Virus record (IMG/VR): IMGVR_UViG_3300009164_000064
Location: 1-64,000 of that record
Reading direction: 5' to 3' (one strand)
DNA from: a virus
Length of the DNA stretch: 64,000 bases
Shown here: piece by piece, positions 7,018-48,793 of the stretch
Layout of the letters: each line of letters starts with the position of its first letter
Position numbering within the stretch: the first letter of the stretch is position 1
Made by a program: the position numbers and the translations under genes
The notes under the pieces: generated by a model
What the model was told of the DNA's origin: nothing
Seen by the model: the letters and a program-made list of their open reading frames with translations, nothing else
The model's database searches: none

Positions 7018-7563
7018 TTATAGCCCACTACTCATTTGGTTCATAATAATACGAGTTTCGTTTGAAATCTTTGGAATAGTAATGCCCTTCTTGGCATTCT
7101 TCCTAGCTTGATCAAGATGAATCTTGTTAGCTCTTTTAGTGTAAAGTACACCATTGAGATGGTCAAGCTCATGTTGAAAAATACGTGCAGTCATTCCACT
7201 AAACTTTTCGGTAATGACATTGCCATTAGGCTCAGTATATCGAACACGAATATGCTGTGGGCGCTTAATCTTAACAAAAAGATTTGGCTGTGAAAGACAA
7301 CCTTCTTCAAGGACAATCAAGTCATCAGATACAGATAATAGGATGGGATTGAAACAGACAATGATTTGCTCTGCCAGCATCGCAAACGCACGATATGGTA
7401 AGCCAATCTGGTTAGCAGCAATACCAACACCACCCTTATCTAGCATAGTTTCTGCTAGATCATGAGCAAGTTGGATAGGGTCTGTTGGGGGGTTTTGGAA
7501 ATTAAACTTATCCAACTCTGTCTTGAGAATTGGATGATGTTTATCCACTAGTTCATGGATCAT
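7018..7563 (-). CDS. def: peptide deformylase
   Basis: Metal-dependent removal of the formyl group from the N-terminal methionine of nascent proteins. All three family motifs are present: GVGIAANQ (45-52), EGCLS (87-91) with the metal-binding Cys89, and QHELDH (130-135) with His131, Glu132 and His135. Length 181 is close to bacterial enzymes, and the C-terminus is longer than in the compact cyanophage version as I remember it. Phage deformylases are known auxiliary genes thought to sustain translation of phage or host proteins during infection. The gene overlaps the upstream 79-residue gene by one base. Confidence 0.95.
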   Translation of the reverse strand: MIHELVDKHHPILKTELDKFNFQNPPTDPIQLAHDLAETMLDKGGVGIAANQIGLPYRAFAMLAEQIIVCFNPILLSVSDDLIVLEEGCLSQPNLFVKIKRPQHIRVRYTEPNGNVITEKFSGMTARIFQHELDHLNGVLYTKRANKIHLDQARKNAKKGITIPKISNETRIIMNQMSSGL

Positions 7564-7802
7564 TATATACTCCTGTTCAAAACTTCATTAAATAATTCAT
7601 TGAGGTGTTCGTCTAGGTTAGGTACCTGTCGTACTCTTGCCAGCCAAACATCATATACAAGTGTATTTATACGATCAAAATTGGTGTTATCATCTTTTTT
7701 TGATACTTTATAATCTCTTTCTTCAAGTTCTTCGATCAATTCTTCATCATCAAAGTCTTCAAGACACACATCGATATTAACTGATACATTCTTATACGTC
7801 AT
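7563..7802 (-). CDS. hypothetical acidic protein (79 aa)
   Basis: A small acidic protein: an N-terminal beta strand (YKNVSVNIDVCLEDF), an acidic helix DDEELIEELEERDYKV, then a helical C-terminus ending in LNELFNEVLNRSI. The DDEELIEELEERGY-like helix is a theme in many small phage proteins without known function. It overlaps the 90-residue gene upstream by 4 nt and abuts the deformylase gene, so it is part of a coupled chain from 46. No catalytic motif is visible. Confidence 0.65.
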   Translation of the reverse strand: MTYKNVSVNIDVCLEDFDDEELIEELEERDYKVSKKDDNTNFDRINTLVYDVWLARVRQVPNLDEHLNELFNEVLNRSI

Positions 7803-8071
7803 ATTTTTTTCTCACGTGCAATAAAATATGGCTGAAACTCACGACATACAGTGAACTTACCAAGCAACTCAGGCTCATCTTCTAGTTCATCACGCTTCCA
7901 CAGATAGAACTCTAGCTCTGTAGCGTTTTCCCAATTACTGTTATCATCATACTCTCTGGCGCAATCTTCTACGACATTAGAGTAATCTTCATAATCATAT
8001 TGATGGTTCCATTCGAAATAATCATCAAAATTAGCATCATCTACTGTGTAATAAAACTTTCTCATTACCAT
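7799..8071 (-). CDS. hypothetical Tyr/Asp-rich protein (90 aa)
   Basis: Very rich in Asp, Glu and Tyr (for example DDANFDDYFEWNHQYDYEDY), probably a compact acidic domain; such acidic phage proteins can mimic DNA or inhibit host enzymes, but nothing specific supports that here. The start ATG at 8071 is preceded by AGGA at 4-nt spacing and overlaps the final codons of 46 by 7 nt. It occupies the place of the small 46.1/46.2 genes of T4. Unrecognised family. Confidence 0.65.
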   Translation of the reverse strand: MVMRKFYYTVDDANFDDYFEWNHQYDYEDYSNVVEDCAREYDDNSNWENATELEFYLWKRDELEDEPELLGKFTVCREFQPYFIAREKKI

Positions 8072-9768
8072 ACTATCCTACTAAAGTTTTTAACTTTTTT
8101 GAACTTAATCTCATGATCGAAACGATCTTTGACACGACTATTGTGTGAGATAACAAACACGTTAGAATCTTCCTGCTTACTGAGGATTTCAAACAACGCA
8201 TCTTCTGCTTCATCATCAGCAGGACCATCACACACTTCATCTAGGATCAACAGGTTTGTTGCCACTGAATTGCGTAGTCTTGCAACTTCACGCCATGTAA
8301 ACATCAGCGCCAAATCGATACGAAACTTCTCACCTTCAGAGAACGACTCATATGAGAATGTATCTCTAAAACGAGACTTTAACACTTCATTGAACTCTTC
8401 GTCAAGATTAAACTCACAAAGAAAGTCCATGTCAGCAAGATATTTGTTGATTGTCTTGTTGATGATAGGAATGTACTGTTGAACAATCTTGGTCTTGATA
8501 CCGCTATCCTTAAGGAACACGGCAGATACATCAAGGATTTCCTTGTGCTTTTTCATGATAGACAAGTTGTCTTTATGCTCTACCAGTTCAACCTTAGCGT
8601 TATCATAGTCGCTGTTATCTTCAATGGTGTTAGCAACATTACGTAGAGCAATAATTTCTTTGTTCAACTCAGCGATACTGCGATTGTATAGAGTGATCTT
8701 GGTGTTGCTATCTTGAATAGAACGATTTAACATGGTTATCTGTGTGTTAGTTGTTTCAATCTGATTGATACGATCATTCACATCCTTAAGCTTTTGCTTA
8801 AGATCATCAACCCCACCAGAAACTTCTTGAAGCTTACCGCTACGCTTTTCTACCACACTGCCCTTATAATCAGGATCAATATCTTGCTTACAGGTAGGAC
8901 ATTCATCATGGTTATTAAAGAAATCAATTTCCTTCTTCAACCCACGAATGCGTTCGTTTAAGGCAGAACCCATCTCAATGATTTTGTTCTTGCGCTTTGA
9001 TACTTTATCTTCGTCAGCAATCTCTTCTAGAAGCTCATTAACCTGAGACTGATATCCATTGATACCAACATTTAACAGGCAACAGTCTGCTTCAAGCTCC
9101 TGTACCTTGATTTCCTTCTGAGCGATTAGTTCTTCATTGTTTGCCTTGAGCGAATCAATATGCTTTTTATGAAGGGCAATCTTTTGCTCACATAATTCAA
9201 TCTCGTACTCTGTCTCTCTTATATGAGACTTGTTCTCTGAAATACGTGACTTCAGAATACCGTTCATAACAGAAAAGATTTGAATATCAAGATAGTCTTC
9301 TACGATCTTGCGGCGGTCAGGAGTTGTCAGGCGCATGAAAGGAATGTAGTTAGCAGAGCCAAGCACCACCACCTGAGTGAAGGTCTTGTGGTTCATCTTG
9401 ATATGGTTCTTTTCAAAGTTCTCTTGGTCTTCTCTAGCACCTTCCTTATCAAGCATCTTACCGTTGCATGTGATATCAAACACGGTTGGCTTCATACCAC
9501 GACGAATTTGATACTCTGTACCATTGATAGACATGTCAAGTTCCACCATCAAACCTTTGTTGGTGATAGTGTTCATTAGCTGCTTAAGAGTGATGTTGCG
9601 GAATGGCTTATTGAACAGCACGTAGCAAAGTGCATCAAGAATAGTAGACTTTCCGCTACCATTCTTGCCAGAGATAAGTGTTAGGTCATTACGGATCAGG
9701 TCAATCTCAGTGAATTGGTTCCCTGATGACAGAAAGTTTTGATATCGCAATTTCTTAAAAAGAATCAT
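8065..9768 (-). CDS. 46: recombination nuclease ATPase subunit (gp46, Rad50-like)
   Basis: With gp47 it resects DNA ends for recombination-dependent replication and host DNA breakdown. The domain order is the Rad50/SbcC one: Walker A GKNGSGKST at residues 34-42, a long coiled coil (about 170-290), a zinc hook CPTC near residue 295, returning coiled coil, ABC signature FSEGEKFR near residue 470, Walker B LLILDE with D-loop near 505, and the switch His in VISHNSR. Length 567 compares with 560 in T4. Three nucleotides separate it from 47. Confidence 0.97.
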   Translation of the reverse strand: MILFKKLRYQNFLSSGNQFTEIDLIRNDLTLISGKNGSGKSTILDALCYVLFNKPFRNITLKQLMNTITNKGLMVELDMSINGTEYQIRRGMKPTVFDITCNGKMLDKEGAREDQENFEKNHIKMNHKTFTQVVVLGSANYIPFMRLTTPDRRKIVEDYLDIQIFSVMNGILKSRISENKSHIRETEYEIELCEQKIALHKKHIDSLKANNEELIAQKEIKVQELEADCCLLNVGINGYQSQVNELLEEIADEDKVSKRKNKIIEMGSALNERIRGLKKEIDFFNNHDECPTCKQDIDPDYKGSVVEKRSGKLQEVSGGVDDLKQKLKDVNDRINQIETTNTQITMLNRSIQDSNTKITLYNRSIAELNKEIIALRNVANTIEDNSDYDNAKVELVEHKDNLSIMKKHKEILDVSAVFLKDSGIKTKIVQQYIPIINKTINKYLADMDFLCEFNLDEEFNEVLKSRFRDTFSYESFSEGEKFRIDLALMFTWREVARLRNSVATNLLILDEVCDGPADDEAEDALFEILSKQEDSNVFVISHNSRVKDRFDHEIKFKKVKNFSRIVW

Positions 9769-11983: not shown

Positions 11984-13461
11984 TTCAATTTTACCTTATA
12001 AATTTTATAATCAAATTTTTCTTGGTCGTAGATATTGACACGTTCTTCGAAGTGCTTTAGAGCAAAGTTCTTCTTAGCACCCTTGGTAAGGTTATCGACA
12101 ATATCATATAGATATGCCTCATCCTTATCCTTGTGTTGTCTCAACATACGTCCAATGGACTGTAGTACTTTGATCTTAGACTTCAGAGGTCCAGCAGCGA
12201 TCATATGATGCAATTTCTTAATAGAGACACCCGTACTTGTGGTACCAAGTGATGCAATAAGAATTGCGTTTTCTTCGTCTTCCATTGCTTTACGGATAGC
12301 CTCTCTATCCTTTACGCCTCCATCAATATAGAAAGCGTTGCTTTGGTCCTTGAGTGCTTCATGAAGAATTTTTCCATGGGCAACTAGACGAAAGAACAGT
12401 AATTTATTGCCCTTGAGAGATAACGCCAAGTTTCTGATGAAATTGGTTCTCTTCTGGTAATTGATTAGGAAATCCACTTCTTCTGCATATGTCTTTTTTC
12501 TGTTCTTCTGTTCAACAGGATCAAAGATAGGCTTATGGAATTCCTTGATAACTTCATCTGGATATTCAAGGACAATGCATTTGATTTTAATGTCTGATGC
12601 GTGTCCTTGATCAATTAATTCTCTGGTTGTTGTCGTAGTATGTGGTGGACCAAATAGTCCCTCAATGGTTGCTTTATTAAGTTCAATATTATCTAGCGTA
12701 CCTGTTGTACCAAATCTATATGGTGTATTTTCCATAGCAGATATAATTTTAATGAGAGATGTTGCCTTACAACCGTGCGCTTCATCTCCTATAACTACTT
12801 GAAACTGATTATACCATGGCTTTGGCATAGTCGATCTACCATTTTCAAGTGACTGCCATGTGGTGATAACAATATCAGCGTCGATATCATTATTTTTTTC
12901 TAGACCACCGATTGATGTTGCGATCTTTCCTTTGAACCCGTATGAGCGAATATCATCTTCAAACTGTGCTACTAGACCAGTTGAAGGTACAATGATCAGT
13001 GTCTTCTCGCTGTACCATGTAGCAATCAAGTAGATCATAAAAGACTTACCTGATGATGTTGGCGATAGAAGAGTTCTTCTGCGTGTTCTTAAACACTTTA
13101 CAACAGCCTCAACCTGATAGTCTCGTATTTCGAGCCATTCAGGGAGTTCCAATGCTTTAATATGTTCTAGTACTTCATTAACGGATACGTTATCGTATGT
13201 CAACTGTTTATCGAAAGAAAAACTATAACCTACACTATCGCAATACTTCTTGATGCGAAGAGCAAGACCAGCATATACAAGACCAGTAACATTATTTACT
13301 AATCGAATTTTTCCGTCCCAAAATTTATTCTTAAAATTTGGATGGTACTTATAGTTCTCTGCGAAGAATGTGAGCTTATCAGAAAGCTCCATTAAGATGC
13401 CAGAGTCGGCTCTTACTCTACAATGAACATCATTTATGTATTCAAGATGTACGTCACTCAT
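11980..13461 (-). CDS. uvsW: UvsW DNA/RNA-DNA helicase
   Basis: Superfamily 2 helicase that unwinds branched recombination intermediates and R-loops, switching T4 from origin- to recombination-dependent replication. Walker A SPTSSGKS is at residues 133-140, DEAH at 226-229, motif III-like FGTTGTL near 252, and motif VI QSIGRMLRQ near 445. The N-terminal 90 residues form the small UvsW accessory domain with the FKNKFWDGKIRL pattern. Length 493 compares with about 500 in T4. It follows uvsY by 3 nt. Confidence 0.96.
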   Translation of the reverse strand: MSDVHLEYINDVHCRVRADSGILMELSDKLTFFAENYKYHPNFKNKFWDGKIRLVNNVTGLVYAGLALRIKKYCDSVGYSFSFDKQLTYDNVSVNEVLEHIKALELPEWLEIRDYQVEAVVKCLRTRRRTLLSPTSSGKSFMIYLIATWYSEKTLIIVPSTGLVAQFEDDIRSYGFKGKIATSIGGLEKNNDIDADIVITTWQSLENGRSTMPKPWYNQFQVVIGDEAHGCKATSLIKIISAMENTPYRFGTTGTLDNIELNKATIEGLFGPPHTTTTTRELIDQGHASDIKIKCIVLEYPDEVIKEFHKPIFDPVEQKNRKKTYAEEVDFLINYQKRTNFIRNLALSLKGNKLLFFRLVAHGKILHEALKDQSNAFYIDGGVKDREAIRKAMEDEENAILIASLGTTSTGVSIKKLHHMIAAGPLKSKIKVLQSIGRMLRQHKDKDEAYLYDIVDNLTKGAKKNFALKHFEERVNIYDQEKFDYKIYKVKLK

Positions 13462-13464
13462 TCA

Positions 13465-13899
13465 TTAGCCACCACTTGTATATTTAATCCAATCGATTGC
13501 GTTTTTGATTTGAAATCCACGATTGGATAGGTTTTTGATAATAGATTCGAGCAGAGAAACCTTTTCGTGCTGGACACCAATCTTCAGGCTTAGCTGAATG
13601 ATATCATTGTCAGCATCAACATATTGCTGAACATCAGAACGAATTACCTTGCCAATTGCAGGTAGTTCCCAACCCTTCTCTTGCGTTTCATTTGTTGGAC
13701 CCTGAGTATAGAATTCATACTTCTCCAACTTTAGAAGCTTTAGTTCAGAATCATACTTACGAAGCAAAATCTTTTCGTTAGTATATATCTCGCTATATTT
13801 TTGATGCAGTGACGAAATCTTCAGAGATTCTTCGCCAAGGTCCATGCGGTCAATTTTGCTATCTTCAGCCCAAAAAGCGTAAATTGATTCGAGTTTCAT
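13465..13899 (-). CDS. uvsY: UvsY recombination mediator
   Basis: Loads the UvsX recombinase on single-stranded DNA coated by gp32. Recognised by length (144; T4 137), by its place directly before uvsW, and by the pattern MKLESIYAFWAEDSKIDRMD at the N-terminus, the LRKYDSELKLLKLEKYEFY helix in the middle, and the C-terminal SNRGFQIKNAIDW that matches the SRGFxIKxxxDW ending of T4 UvsY. A clean sigma70-type promoter lies immediately upstream, so uvsY-uvsW can be expressed before late transcription begins. Confidence 0.93.
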   Translation of the reverse strand: MKLESIYAFWAEDSKIDRMDLGEESLKISSLHQKYSEIYTNEKILLRKYDSELKLLKLEKYEFYTQGPTNETQEKGWELPAIGKVIRSDVQQYVDADNDIIQLSLKIGVQHEKVSLLESIIKNLSNRGFQIKNAIDWIKYTSGG

Positions 13900-13934
13900 A
13901 ATATATCCTTTAATGCGTCTCAGTTATTGAGACG

Positions 13935-13963
13935 ATCATAACATTGATTCGTTATGGTGTCAA
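13935..13963 (-). promoter_or_regulatory. uvsY: sigma70-type promoter before uvsY
   Basis: Perfect -35 TTGACA (13958-13963), 17-nt spacer, -10 TATGAT (13935-13940) on the minus strand, about 36 nt before the uvsY start. The -35 overlaps the stop of the gp3-like gene. The spacer contains an inverted repeat CATAAC/GTTATG, and a second small hairpin CGTCTC/GAGACG follows at the transcript start, without a U-tract. It separates the late gp3-like gene from the early or middle recombination genes. Confidence 0.82.
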
Positions 13964-14433
13964 TCCATCACATCAAAATAATATCTATTAAATCTAAAGC
14001 CTACAATTGAAGTAGCATACTGTATTTCGGGTAGTGTACTATCAAATTCAATAGGAGATAGTGAAATAGGAAATACGTCTGTAAACCTTACATGGATGTG
14101 TGGCTGTAGATTGTTATTAAGAATGAACACAGAACAGTCTGACTTAATATTACTATATTGACCTAGATCGTCAGGGTGTCCCAGATGTACCATCCAGTTA
14201 AAAATCTCAAGATAGTCAGCCATATTTTCACCAACCATAAATTTAATGGAAAGTTCATCGTATGTTATGTTACCTGCGCTGTAATATGGTACAAATGGCG
14301 TTGGAGATGCAATTGCACCTAGATTGATACCAGGAATAGTTACAGTCTGTGCACGATACTCTAACTCAGGTGTGATGCTCAGTTTGAACCTAAAATTCAG
14401 TTGAGATAGATTATTTTGATCTGGCATGAACAT
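13960..14433 (-). CDS. 3: tail-tube-fold protein, probable gp3-like tail terminator
   Basis: The pattern YRAQTVTIPGINLGAIA, then PTPFVPYYSAGNITYDELSI and KFMVGENMADYLEIFNWMVH, is the strand-and-helix signature of the T4 tail-tube superfamily and resembles the protein that cyanophage annotations place between 23 and uvsY as gp3 (tail completion). Length 157 compares with T4 gp3 at 176. By this reading it caps the tube and stops its polymerisation. A baseplate-tube junction protein of the same fold (gp54/gp48-like) is the main alternative. A perfect late octamer lies upstream at 14504-14511. Confidence 0.65.
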   Translation of the reverse strand: MFMPDQNNLSQLNFRFKLSITPELEYRAQTVTIPGINLGAIASPTPFVPYYSAGNITYDELSIKFMVGENMADYLEIFNWMVHLGHPDDLGQYSNIKSDCSVFILNNNLQPHIHVRFTDVFPISLSPIEFDSTLPEIQYATSIVGFRFNRYYFDVMD

Positions 14434-14448
14434 TTTGGTATTTTCCTC

Positions 14449-14477
14449 TTGACCAACCGAGTCGGTGTGGTTATAAT
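14449..14477 (+). promoter_or_regulatory. sigma70-type promoter for plus-strand island
   Basis: TTGACC (14449-14454), 17-nt spacer, perfect TATAAT (14472-14477) on the plus strand, about 50 nt before the first plus-strand gene. Five of six -35 bases and all -10 bases match. It is back-to-back with the late octamer at 14504-14511 on the opposite strand, so early rightward and late leftward transcription would overlap here. Confidence 0.8.
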
Positions 14478-14503
14478 AGATTTGTAGATATGAAAACTAA
14501 TAG

Positions 14504-14511
14504 TATTTATA
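14504..14511 (-). promoter_or_regulatory. late promoter octamer TATAAATA (gp3-like gene)
   Basis: A perfect T4 late octamer on the minus strand, 70 nt before the start codon of the gp3-like gene, in the divergent intergenic gap. Late genes in T4 are read by gp55-bearing polymerase from exactly this sequence. Confidence 0.8.
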
Positions 14512-14526
14512 TAGTAAGGAAATAAG

Positions 14527-14712
14527 ATGATTCGAATTCAAAGAATGAGAGACACAGGAAACTGGACGCAGATGAGCACTTGTTCAAAGACAAGTGATTC
14601 TATTTTAAATCATCTGATGGAAAGGGTTGCCAAACAGAAAATGAATGGCTATACTAATCGTGTCAGAGCAATTGATGATTCAGGTAATCTGATTAACTTC
14701 TATAGCGGATAA
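14527..14712 (+). CDS. hypothetical small protein (61 aa), plus strand
   Basis: First of three plus-strand genes. The ATG is preceded by AAGGAA at 5-nt spacing and by a sigma70 promoter. The product MIRIQRMRDTGNWTQMSTCS is basic and ends with AIDDSGNLINFYSG, a beta-hairpin-like finish. No family recognised. The promoter type and orientation opposite to the late structural block suggest early expression; small early proteins of T4-like phages often modify host functions, but this one gives no clue to its target. Confidence 0.68.
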   Translation: MIRIQRMRDTGNWTQMSTCSKTSDSILNHLMERVAKQKMNGYTNRVRAIDDSGNLINFYSG

Positions 14713-14733
14713 CACTGCTTTTGCAAAGGAAAT

Positions 14734-15060
14734 ATGATGAATAAAGAACAATATGATAATTTATATTATAGAGCAGCTTTTAGGGAATCTGGATACTGGT
14801 CATTACTAATGCATGTCAAGTATACGACAGGATCAACAAAGTTTATTTTTGATGATGAAAAAAGTGCACGTGATGCATACGAAGGAATGGCGGAAGCCTT
14901 AAAGAAAGATAAAAATTATTCAAATGAACGTGAGCGTACCTTTACGTTTACATCATATGGTAATTCTAGTACAACTGTTGATATATCTGATATTAGTTAT
15001 ATTAGCGTAAACGCTCCTACCAAACATTTATTTGAGGATGAAGAAATTGAAAATGCTTGA
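14734..15060 (+). CDS. hypothetical protein (108 aa), plus strand
   Basis: A strong AAAGGAAA ribosome-binding site precedes tandem ATGATG; either may start. The product has an alpha/beta pattern: MHVKYTTGSTKFIFDDEKSA, then a helix AYEGMAEALKKDK, then strands with FTFTSYGNSSTTVDIS and SYISVNAP. That order (strand, helix, strands) would suit a small protein-binding domain, but I recognise no family. It is transcribed with the 61-residue gene, 21 nt upstream, and overlaps the membrane-protein gene downstream. Confidence 0.72.
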   Translation: MMNKEQYDNLYYRAAFRESGYWSLLMHVKYTTGSTKFIFDDEKSARDAYEGMAEALKKDKNYSNERERTFTFTSYGNSSTTVDISDISYISVNAPTKHLFEDEEIENA

Positions 15061-15259
15061 AATTTTAAAATGGATTGGCACCATATGTGTGATTGTTGCA
15101 GCAGCATGTCGTGCATTTGAATTCCACTCCATCGATCTTATTTTGTCAATTATCGGAGCATCTGTCTGGGGATATGCTGCTTATAAGATGAATGATAAAC
15201 CATTGATGGTTGTTAATGGATTTATTACTGCCATTCTTATCTATGGTGTAGTAAAGTAA
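15038..15259 (+). CDS. small membrane protein with two or three spans (73 aa)
   Basis: A short basic N-terminus (MKKLKMLEILKWIG) leads into hydrophobic segments ICVIVAAACRAF, LILSIIGASVWGYAAY and MVVNGFITAILIYGVV, as in an integral inner-membrane protein. The start is uncertain: ATG at 15038 or the ATG at 15053, which overlaps the upstream stop; a TTG lies at 15032. It closes the plus-strand operon and is followed 10 nt later by a bidirectional terminator. A role in superinfection exclusion would fit size and topology but is speculation. Confidence 0.68.
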   Translation: MKKLKMLEILKWIGTICVIVAAACRAFEFHSIDLILSIIGASVWGYAAYKMNDKPLMVVNGFITAILIYGVVK

Positions 15260-15263
15260 TACA

Positions 15264-15307
15264 CAAAAAAAGGGGAGAGCCTTTTCGACTCTCCCCTTAA
15301 TTTTTTT
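15264..15307. terminator. bidirectional intrinsic terminator
   Basis: AAGGGGAGAG (15270-15279) pairs perfectly with CTCTCCCCTT (15289-15298) around a 9-nt loop. On the plus strand T residues follow at 15301-15307; on the minus strand the A-run at 15264-15271 reads as U. It therefore ends the plus-strand island and also the leftward late transcript after 23, whose stop is 18 nt away. Confidence 0.92.
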
Positions 15308-15325
15308 GTCCGTAGACAACCAAAC

Positions 15326-16711
15326 TTACATAAGGTTGTTAACGATCAGACGGCGATAGTACTGGTTTGTATCCTGAGCAACAACACCAGAAGATGCATC
15401 GGTTAGACCACGTGCAAATGGATTGGCTACCATACCGTATCGTGTCTTGAAGCCGATCTTTGGCTGGAATGTATCAGGGTTTACAGCACGAACCATTTGT
15501 AGTGGAACATATGGGCAGTAGAACAGACCAGCATCAAATGCTGAGCTACCCTTGTAACCAACTACTAGGTAGTTAGCACCAGCATATGGATCGATGTACA
15601 CACGTAGGCGACCATTAAGAACACCAGCGAAGGTATTGCCTGTGTCATCTACGTTTAGGTTGTTGCTGTTAAGAGCAGGGGCATAGTCAAGAACACCAGC
15701 CATTTGAAGGGCAGAAGCAACATCTGATGAACAGATGATGATATTACCCTTACCACGTCTTGTACCCTTGGCGATAGCGTTAGCTTCACGCTCAACTTGG
15801 AACATAAGACCCTTGAACTTTTCAACTGACCAACGACCATTTGAGTCGGTGTCAAGATCGAAAATACCAGCAGCAGTTGTACCTTCAGCAGCACCACGAA
15901 CAGCAGAAATAACAACTGTACGGATAACTTCACGGTTAATTTCAGCTAGAATTTCAGCAGATAGAATGTTTGAAAGTTCTGTTTCTGCGTCAAGACCGTG
16001 AATTGCCTTAAGGTCTTGTGCTAGTTCTAGTGAGTATTCTGCCTTTAGAGCACGGCTGTTAGCAGTTACAGAAACCTTCTCGATTGAGAAAGCCATTTCT
16101 GGGAATACTGTACCTGAGCCTAGACCTTCAGCAGCGGCAGTAGCAATACCACCACCAAAGTTGTATGCGTCTGTAGAAGCGTTGTTAATAGTTGTAGGAT
16201 ATAGACCTACGTTATTAGCAGCACCACCCATTGCTGAACCACTAGCATAACCAGCAGTAGTTGCTGACATGCCTGAAGAACCACCACGACCTGAGAATGC
16301 AGTATTTGCTTCACCGTAGAATGCTTCGTTACCGTCCTGTGCAGCATAACGTGCTCTCATTGCGAAGATAAGACCTGTTGGGCCTGTCATTGGCTGAACG
16401 CCGCAGATATCATAAGCAACGAGGTTAGGCATAGCACGACGAACTAGTGAGATAAGCACTGGATCGAATGTGTCAACTGCGCCAGCAGAAGCAGTTGATG
16501 AAGATGCGCCCATTGAGTTAACTGGTGCAGCTTCGCTAAGGAAGCCTGAGCCACCCATACCTGCTGAACGAGCTTCACGGATTGCATTTTCAGTATTTTC
16601 TAGAACTTGAGCAGTAACCGCTCTACGGTGACTGTCCTTGATTTCTGGAAGATCAGCGTGTTCAAGCACTGGCTTCCACTTGTTTTGAATTTCTTCAGCT
16701 AGATATGACAT
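15326..16711 (-). CDS. 23: major capsid protein (gp23)
   Basis: HK97-fold subunit of the head lattice. It opens with a propeptide (MSYLAEEIQNKWKPVLEHAD) and contains a T4-type protease site, FLSE followed by AAPV, so gp21 should cleave after Glu60 (Glu65 in T4). The region PNLVAYDICGVQPMTGPTGL and the C-terminal FQPKIGFKTRYGMVANPFAR are diagnostic of gp23. Length 461 compares with 521 in T4, as in the shorter cyanophage version. A perfect late octamer lies 45 nt upstream, and an intrinsic terminator follows. Confidence 0.98.
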   Translation of the reverse strand: MSYLAEEIQNKWKPVLEHADLPEIKDSHRRAVTAQVLENTENAIREARSAGMGGSGFLSEAAPVNSMGASSSTASAGAVDTFDPVLISLVRRAMPNLVAYDICGVQPMTGPTGLIFAMRARYAAQDGNEAFYGEANTAFSGRGGSSGMSATTAGYASGSAMGGAANNVGLYPTTINNASTDAYNFGGGIATAAAEGLGSGTVFPEMAFSIEKVSVTANSRALKAEYSLELAQDLKAIHGLDAETELSNILSAEILAEINREVIRTVVISAVRGAAEGTTAAGIFDLDTDSNGRWSVEKFKGLMFQVEREANAIAKGTRRGKGNIIICSSDVASALQMAGVLDYAPALNSNNLNVDDTGNTFAGVLNGRLRVYIDPYAGANYLVVGYKGSSAFDAGLFYCPYVPLQMVRAVNPDTFQPKIGFKTRYGMVANPFARGLTDASSGVVAQDTNQYYRRLIVNNLM

Positions 16712-48185: not shown

Positions 48186-48218
48186 TCGATTACTCTTCGT
48201 CTAATAGGGTGTCTTTAG

Positions 48219-48226
48219 TATTTATC
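48219..48226 (-). promoter_or_regulatory. late promoter-like octamer GATAAATA (Ig-like gene)
   Basis: Seven of eight bases match, 34 nt before the Ig-like start, three bases from the rightward sigma70 promoter. Confidence 0.4.
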
Positions 48227-48228
48227 TA

Positions 48229-48257
48229 TTGACAACCACAGCGAATCTCGTTATAAT
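48229..48257 (+). promoter_or_regulatory. perfect sigma70 promoter, antisense into heme-oxygenase-like gene
   Basis: TTGACA (48229-48234), 17-nt spacer, TATAAT (48252-48257): all twelve consensus bases match on the plus strand. The only sense-strand genes here run leftward, so the transcript (start near 48264) would be antisense to the 3' end of the heme-oxygenase-like gene and beyond. I found no plus-strand gene or clear terminator directly downstream. Minus-strand genes start on its left. Confidence 0.8.
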
Positions 48258-48277
48258 CGATATGTCGTAATTAAATA

Positions 48278-48793
48278 CTATACTGTATATAGAGATTCAA
48301 TCTCATCCATGACATTCAACAAAGCCTGAAAGCAGTCTCTAGCTTCTTGTGTGATATCATCACGAGTACGAAAAGTTTGGAGAACAGCAAGCGATTCTTT
48401 ACGATCATCCCATTCTAAATGAAGTGTGGGGAAGCCTTCTAGTCTTCTTCTCATGATTTCACCACCCATTAGATGAGCACCTGTGAGAACATAAGCAGCA
48501 CCAGCAATAGATTTTTCGGTTCTTAAAGATGCAACATAATCAGCAGCAGCTTTAAAAAGTTTAACTTCAGGTTCATGATCCATCGCCTGAAGGTCTTTAA
48601 AAATTCTGTGTGTACGAGAAATGCATTCAGGCATTTGGGGATCAATTGCAGAGTGAATTTGGTACAAGGCCATTAACCAAGCCTTGTACCAAATCCTATG
48701 TGGTTTACCTGTTGCCATAGCACCGCCTACAGCGTGTGCTTCACAAGCATGATGTAGGTCACGTGTTGATTCCCATAACGGTTTAGTTGTCAT
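48278..48793 (-). CDS. heme oxygenase-like protein
   Basis: Heme oxygenases open heme to biliverdin, iron and CO. The N-terminal WESTRDLHHACEAHAVGGAM aligns with the family's T-x-x-x-H-x-x-x-E helix: His14 and Glu18 take the places of the proximal heme ligand His25 and Glu29 of human HO-1. KAWLMALYQIHSAID matches the next helix (xxYHxYxALE). YVLTGAHLMGGEIMRRRL resembles the distal helix (YVLEGSTLGGRVLxRRL of bacterial BphO-type enzymes), with one extra residue before the GG pair. Length 171 is right for the compact bacterial form. No membrane tail. It lies alone among fibre genes; a non-enzymatic relative of the same helical fold cannot be excluded. Confidence 0.75.
   Translation of the reverse strand: MTTKPLWESTRDLHHACEAHAVGGAMATGKPHRIWYKAWLMALYQIHSAIDPQMPECISRTHRIFKDLQAMDHEPEVKLFKAAADYVASLRTEKSIAGAAYVLTGAHLMGGEIMRRRLEGFPTLHLEWDDRKESLAVLQTFRTRDDITQEARDCFQALLNVMDEIESLYTV

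Follow-up and report, generated by a model that had tools for sequence, protein, structure and literature searches.

A probable mobile cassette lies antisense between gp23 and the gp3-like gene

Three small plus-strand genes located between the major capsid gene gp23 and a gp3-like gene probably form a mobile, swappable accessory cassette of a T4-like phage, docked antisense in a cargo slot that is common at the gp23/gp3-like junction. On sequence evidence, the island is a genuine insertion of the early type. It belongs to a known kind, the mobile accessory cassettes of T4-type phages, for which promoter-linked gene shuffling is already published, and its distinctive details are a pair of interlocked promoters and a shared terminator.

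The window analyzed here is a stretch of 64,000 nucleotides, part of a 72,525-base IMG/VR virus record, and is a fragment of a T4-like phage. Its genes run leftward and include those of a T4-type head and tail block (gp21 protease, gp22 scaffold, gp23 capsid, gp3-like, uvsY, uvsW). A script-made map of 59 genes over the 64 kb placed only two genes on the plus strand, and both are part of the island (ORF2 and ORF3). The script did not pick the first island gene, ORF1, which has little length and a low score; it is supported by other evidence. The right flank of the slot is gp23 (15326-16711, minus strand) and the left flank is the gp3-like gene of the tail-tube family (13960-14433, minus strand), both assigned by family match. 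Among named phage records the closest capsid is that of Stenotrophomonas phage DLP6, which is 67% identical, and the DNA from 13400 to 16400 had no near match in phage records. An earlier note on this DNA had described the surrounding block as transcribed only leftward and only by late promoters. The leftward direction holds, but the block is not purely late, since a motif scan placed a sigma70-type site (TTGACA-17-TATGAT, 13963-13935, minus strand) upstream of uvsY. Similar sites are also present in records G001 and G002.

The gp23-gp3 slot holds different cargo in different relatives

The slot was compared among the best 80 loci listed by gp23 identity, near-duplicates included. The distance between gp23 and gp3 was measurable in 67 of these, with cut contigs and loci lacking a gp3 match left out. 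By comparison among the loci listed, the usual gap contains the gp23 terminator followed by the gp3 late promoter. The gap was empty (at most 147 bp, with the terminator hairpin inside) in 45 of the 67 measured among the best 80 listed and enlarged (at least 229 bp) in the other 22. The octamer NATAAATA is directed toward gp3 in 42 of the 45 empty gaps listed and in the opposite direction in none of them. The earlier note had proposed an early-type island inserted between late genes, to be compared with relatives for presence or absence, and had held that an island conserved and essential for virion assembly in all relatives would speak against it. Because the gap is empty in 45/67 of the measured loci listed, the island is not conserved in all relatives, and it is supported as an accessory insertion. 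No empty-slot member was found in the immediate clade of the window, so the insertion is deduced from more distant relatives.

Eleven of the 22 enlarged gaps listed contain in-line cargo, oriented in the direction of gp23; in L011 it includes a GIY-YIG-like gene and in L034 a gene for a homing endonuclease. A gene for a Bmp-type substrate-binding protein is also found in-line in the slot (L071:3611-4675, 182 bits; also L073). The best bacterial relatives of this protein, with identities of 71-75% for the top matches listed, come from Alphaproteobacteria and include Pelagibacteraceae, which suggests that the gene was probably acquired from a SAR11-like host as an auxiliary gene. Antisense cargo fills six of the 22 enlarged gaps listed (the window, L091, L092, L025, L027, and L047) and is also present in L024 and L093, where both contigs end before gp3. 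Such cargo includes a 2OG-Fe(II) oxygenase gene (L025:2117-2728, also in L024 and L027). In L047 three small genes make up an antisense island independent of the others (7403-8380), and a TTGACA-17-TATGGT site is located near gp3. The last five of the 22 listed (L021, L041, L058, L076, and L080) have no clear gene and were counted as enlarged, not as in-line or antisense. The antisense count leaves out L056, L070, and L055. Two of these, L056 and L070, were considered as antisense islands and rejected because their leftward genes continue as an extended block and gp3 is not close by. In both, gp23 is convergent with this long leftward gene block and is not followed by gp3.

In the window, the island is located between the gp3-like gene and a hairpin at 15270-15298 that by position is the gp23 terminator. 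The hairpin has 12 pairs, T-tracts on both strands and strong predicted folding (z-scores of -4.7 on the plus strand and -6.5 on the minus strand), in agreement with the bidirectional terminator described previously. It is retained in 4/4 same-site phages (the window, L091, L092, and L093). A search of Rfam gave a single match, far under its cut-off. A T-run of at least five on the island side is present in 7/8 antisense-cargo loci, compared to 10/45 empty gaps and 2/11 in-line loci among those listed, a contrast between cargo types that is only suggestive because the antisense loci come from some three lineages.

Early and late promoters face each other at the start of the island

A sigma70-type (early-type) promoter, TTGACC-17-TATAAT, is located at 14449-14477 on the plus strand and agrees with the consensus at 11 of 12 positions. 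The number of promoter-like sites in the window is not above chance, with 33 observed and 43 expected in shuffles. Across the window, L092, L091, and L093, the hexamers are invariant at 11/12 positions, compared to 5/17 for the spacer. Since the count alone is no better than shuffles, it is the conservation of the hexamers on which we judge the promoter to be real. A perfect late octamer for the gp3-like gene, TATAAATA, is located at 14511-14504 on the minus strand and is also present in the same-site relatives. Both elements had been recognized in the earlier note, which described them as back-to-back. This geometry is ruled out by the coordinates, which instead give a facing, interlocked pair: the promoters are convergent, each within the transcript leader of the other, and the early promoter of the island reaches into the gp3 leader. 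By standard spacing rules, we infer that rightward transcripts start at approximately 14484 and leftward ones at approximately 14498, the latter from the usual spacing between the T4 late consensus and the transcription start. With these starts the 5' ends of the two transcripts would overlap, and two polymerases could presumably hardly occupy the promoter pair at 14449-14511 together. No late octamer in the direction of the island was found ahead of ORF1.

A second copy of this promoter type (TTGACA-17-TATAAT, 48229-48257, plus strand) is found in a gap between two minus-strand genes (48213-48277), and no plus-strand gene follows it. Outside the hexamers, the two promoters are alike at 42/77 positions. 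The background for this comparison was a set of 376 promoter-like positions that included both compared promoters, and its mean of 21.1, standard deviation of 4.0 and maximum of 36 exclude both. The interval matching the 48229 region is about 30 bp in the relative G001, compared to about 100 bp in the window, approximately 70 bp shorter, so the 48229 copy looks like an insertion. A heme-oxygenase-like gene (48278-48793, minus strand; PF01126, 25.0 bits with a cut-off of 23) lies amid large tail-fibre-like genes.

In phage contigs that have ORF3 in another location, the early-promoter motif was also counted per strand, allowing at most one mismatch and with a reversed pattern as control. There it is strand-biased and exceeds the control, with forward/reverse counts of 12/0 in G006 (control 0/1), 2/11 in G004 (control 2/0), and 1/7 in G005 (control 0/1). 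G004 and G006 have promoter sites in common and are not independent. ORF3 is found in those contigs near a gene read as dCMP deaminase, amid other small genes. No gp23 was found in them, so their kinship to the window phage is putative.

Genes are exchanged behind a constant promoter and first gene

Three small plus-strand genes had been described in the island, and ORFs of 61, 108, and 68 amino acids are indeed present. ORF1 (14527-14712, plus strand, 61 amino acids) is the constant first gene and is 84-85% identical in the three same-site relatives, with dN/dS of 0.09-0.27. ORF2 (14734-15060, plus strand, 108 amino acids) is variable; it is 59% identical in L093, with dN/dS of 0.34, and is lacking in L091 and L092. 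ORF3 (15053-15259, plus strand, 68 amino acids) has dN/dS of 0.05-0.30 where computable, and its start overlaps the end of ORF2 by 8 bp. The 68-amino-acid start was our choice, and the ORF listing has a longer version from a TTG start. For all three, dN/dS is below 0.35 wherever computable, indicating purifying selection, and the opposite-frame codon scores at the island ORFs are strongly negative. Good ribosome-binding sites, another feature expected from the earlier note, are present ahead of ORF1 and ORF2 (AAGGA-type), but the site ahead of ORF3 is weaker.

The exchange of genes is evident within a clade of four phages, in which gp23 of the relatives is 85-88% identical to that of the window and the flanks are collinear. 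The constant ORF1 is followed by ORF2 and ORF3 in the window, by a 60-amino-acid gene (Z) and ORF3 in L092, by two other genes (X and Y) in L091, and by ORF2 and X in L093. When L092 and L091 are aligned to the window as DNA, the match ends at or just past the ORF1 stop and begins again at ORF3 or the hairpin. Behind a constant promoter and ORF1 the downstream genes are exchanged, one of them, Z, with its own sigma70-like site, which is found upstream of Z in L092 and again in another context in L214. Searches of Pfam, PHROGs, PADLOC, and NCBIfam gave no informative family for ORF1 or ORF2, and none of the three ORFs had a match in phage records. A search of viral contigs with ORF2 found no relative; L093, which was retrieved through ORF1, nonetheless holds one.

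ORF3 belongs to DUF6552 and is remotely SemiSWEET-like

The last island gene had been called a membrane protein, and this is upheld by prediction, as ORF3 is hydrophobic with three predicted helices. It matches DUF6552 (Pfam PF20189) at 34.3 bits, above the curated cut-off of 27, and the family is matched by all eight phage members. DUF6552 is also chromosomal in Alphaproteobacteria: of 385 genomes belonging to the same class as one titled Pelagibacteraceae, 20 have a match above the cut-off. The neighbors of the bacterial genes vary between genomes, and a function from bacterial gene neighborhood was dropped for this reason. ORF3 had no match in plasmids. Peptide patterns from ORF3 found nothing in genome contigs; the family profile did find the members in Alphaproteobacteria.

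A profile of phage and bacterial DUF6552 members listed six PDB sequences at E of at most 10, with E from 0.002 to 0.96. Three of these are named SemiSWEET, one MtN3/saliva family, one "chemical transport protein," and one "uncharacterized." The alignment of DUF6552 with SemiSWEET by hhalign gave a probability of 67%, compared to 0.5% for a reversed control, and the profile alignment covers helices 2-3 only. The PQ motif in helix 1 is defining for SemiSWEET, and it is absent from 15/15 aligned DUF6552 members. Foldseek gave no significant match for ORF3; it lists the SemiSWEET chains 5uhq and 4rng, not above unrelated bundles. Matches to MIT domains and designed bundles were set aside as a common three-helix shape (Foldseek E above 1), and a SWEET match is not separable from these by fold alone. 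ORF3 thus appears to be remotely SWEET-like, and not a SemiSWEET. Our literature search found no paper on DUF6552, a small membrane-protein family common to phages and Alphaproteobacteria and remotely SemiSWEET-like that is brought to attention here.

Proposed function of the cassette and alternative explanations

Insertion between the gp23 terminator and the gp3 late promoter leaves neither structural gene broken. Early in infection, host sigma70 polymerase would read the island rightward from 14449-14477 and stop at the gp23 hairpin, whose island-side T-tract would prevent antisense transcription into gp23. Late in infection, leftward transcription by modified polymerase would begin at 14511-14504. 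This should silence the island, since the two promoters overlap and are directed at each other. The cargo proteins may tune host physiology early, with ORF3 as a putative member of the small membrane-protein family DUF6552, also in Alphaproteobacteria and remotely like the SemiSWEET half-transporters. The natural series of empty slots, in-line cargo, and antisense cargo with swapped genes offers a way to ask how a lytic phage can take up genes next to essential structural ones and leave those undisturbed, and the facing early and late promoters provide a case for how both use one stretch of DNA over time. A more far-reaching version is doubtful: the gp23-gp3 junction of T4-like phages would be a widespread, transcriptionally insulated cargo port with docking between the capsid terminator and the gp3 late promoter, face-to-face early and late promoters would auto-silence the cargo, a promoter cassette of approximately 80 bp would move independently of genes, as in the 48229 copy, and one docked gene would encode a small SWEET-like membrane transporter acting early in infection.

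Early-type promoters with small variable genes are typical of host-takeover or exclusion functions, and both features of the island fit such functions, as does a predicted hydrophobic, three-helix ORF3. Host takeover or superinfection exclusion, raised in the earlier note, in which the proteins reprogram the host and the membrane protein ORF3 blocks competing phages, is accordingly a possible role on sequence grounds, but we consider it unlikely. The database searches with ORF1 and ORF2 gave no informative match, and the chromosomal occurrence of DUF6552 in Alphaproteobacteria fits an auxiliary host-like protein at least equally well. The location of the island amid head and tail genes, together with a promoter count not above shuffles, could instead indicate minor virion or assembly genes that are on the opposite strand by chance and expressed late. 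This is the most improbable of the explanations, as there is no late octamer in the direction of the island ahead of ORF1, the hexamers of the sigma70 promoter are conserved, phages whose capsids are 85-88% identical carry different genes here, and the slot is empty in 45/67 relatives among the loci listed. Facing promoters with overlapping leaders would also be expected if the island were mainly regulatory, so that rightward RNA interfered with the expression of gp23 or gp3 and the ORFs were incidental. Purifying selection on all three ORFs makes this very unlikely, and the strong hairpin with its island-side T-tract would halt rightward RNA ahead of gp23. Antisense control of gp23 by island RNA was rejected because the hairpin lies between them.

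The island resembles other accessory cassettes of T4-type phages

The PeSL (promoter early stem loop) elements of T4-type phages reportedly act as mobile regulatory cassettes (Arbiol 2010, Comeau 2014). Passages in papers citing that work tie the early promoter and stem-loop of PeSL to gene shuffling in T4-type phages, and the island in the window likewise has an early promoter and a stem-loop. A further PeSL-like trait is that its promoter element is repeated in the genome and apparently mobile, with the sister copy at 48229 and the shorter matching interval in G001. In contrast to PeSL, reportedly one composite unit of adjacent elements, the promoter (14449) and hairpin (15270) of the window are approximately 800 bp apart, one at each end of the island, and the hairpin is that of the gp23 terminator.

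The T4 homing endonuclease gene segD, between genes 23 and 24, is likewise antisense directly behind gp23. One review stresses that it is oriented against genes 23 and 24 and states that no promoter was found for it (PMC2988022); other literature covered is PMC4503421, PMC4177764, PMC2993671, and PMC5349666. The window island differs from segD in having a conserved promoter and no endonuclease. Among the papers listed in our literature searches, no title or abstract opening described an insertion between gp23 and gp3, which is weak evidence of absence.

The same gp23-gp3 slot is occupied by six antisense small genes each in the Sinorhizobium phages phiN3 (PHIN3_58 to 63) and phiM12. The proteins of these islands are not clearly similar to ORF1-3 (best E of 0.03 by tblastn). 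An octamer-like CATAAATA is retained ahead of gp3 in phiN3, as in the slot of the window, but unlike the window phiN3 has no comparable sigma70 site at the start of its island. Another plus-strand run of small genes within the leftward structural block is found in phiM12 beside gp19 (L100, KF381361, 32704-35146).
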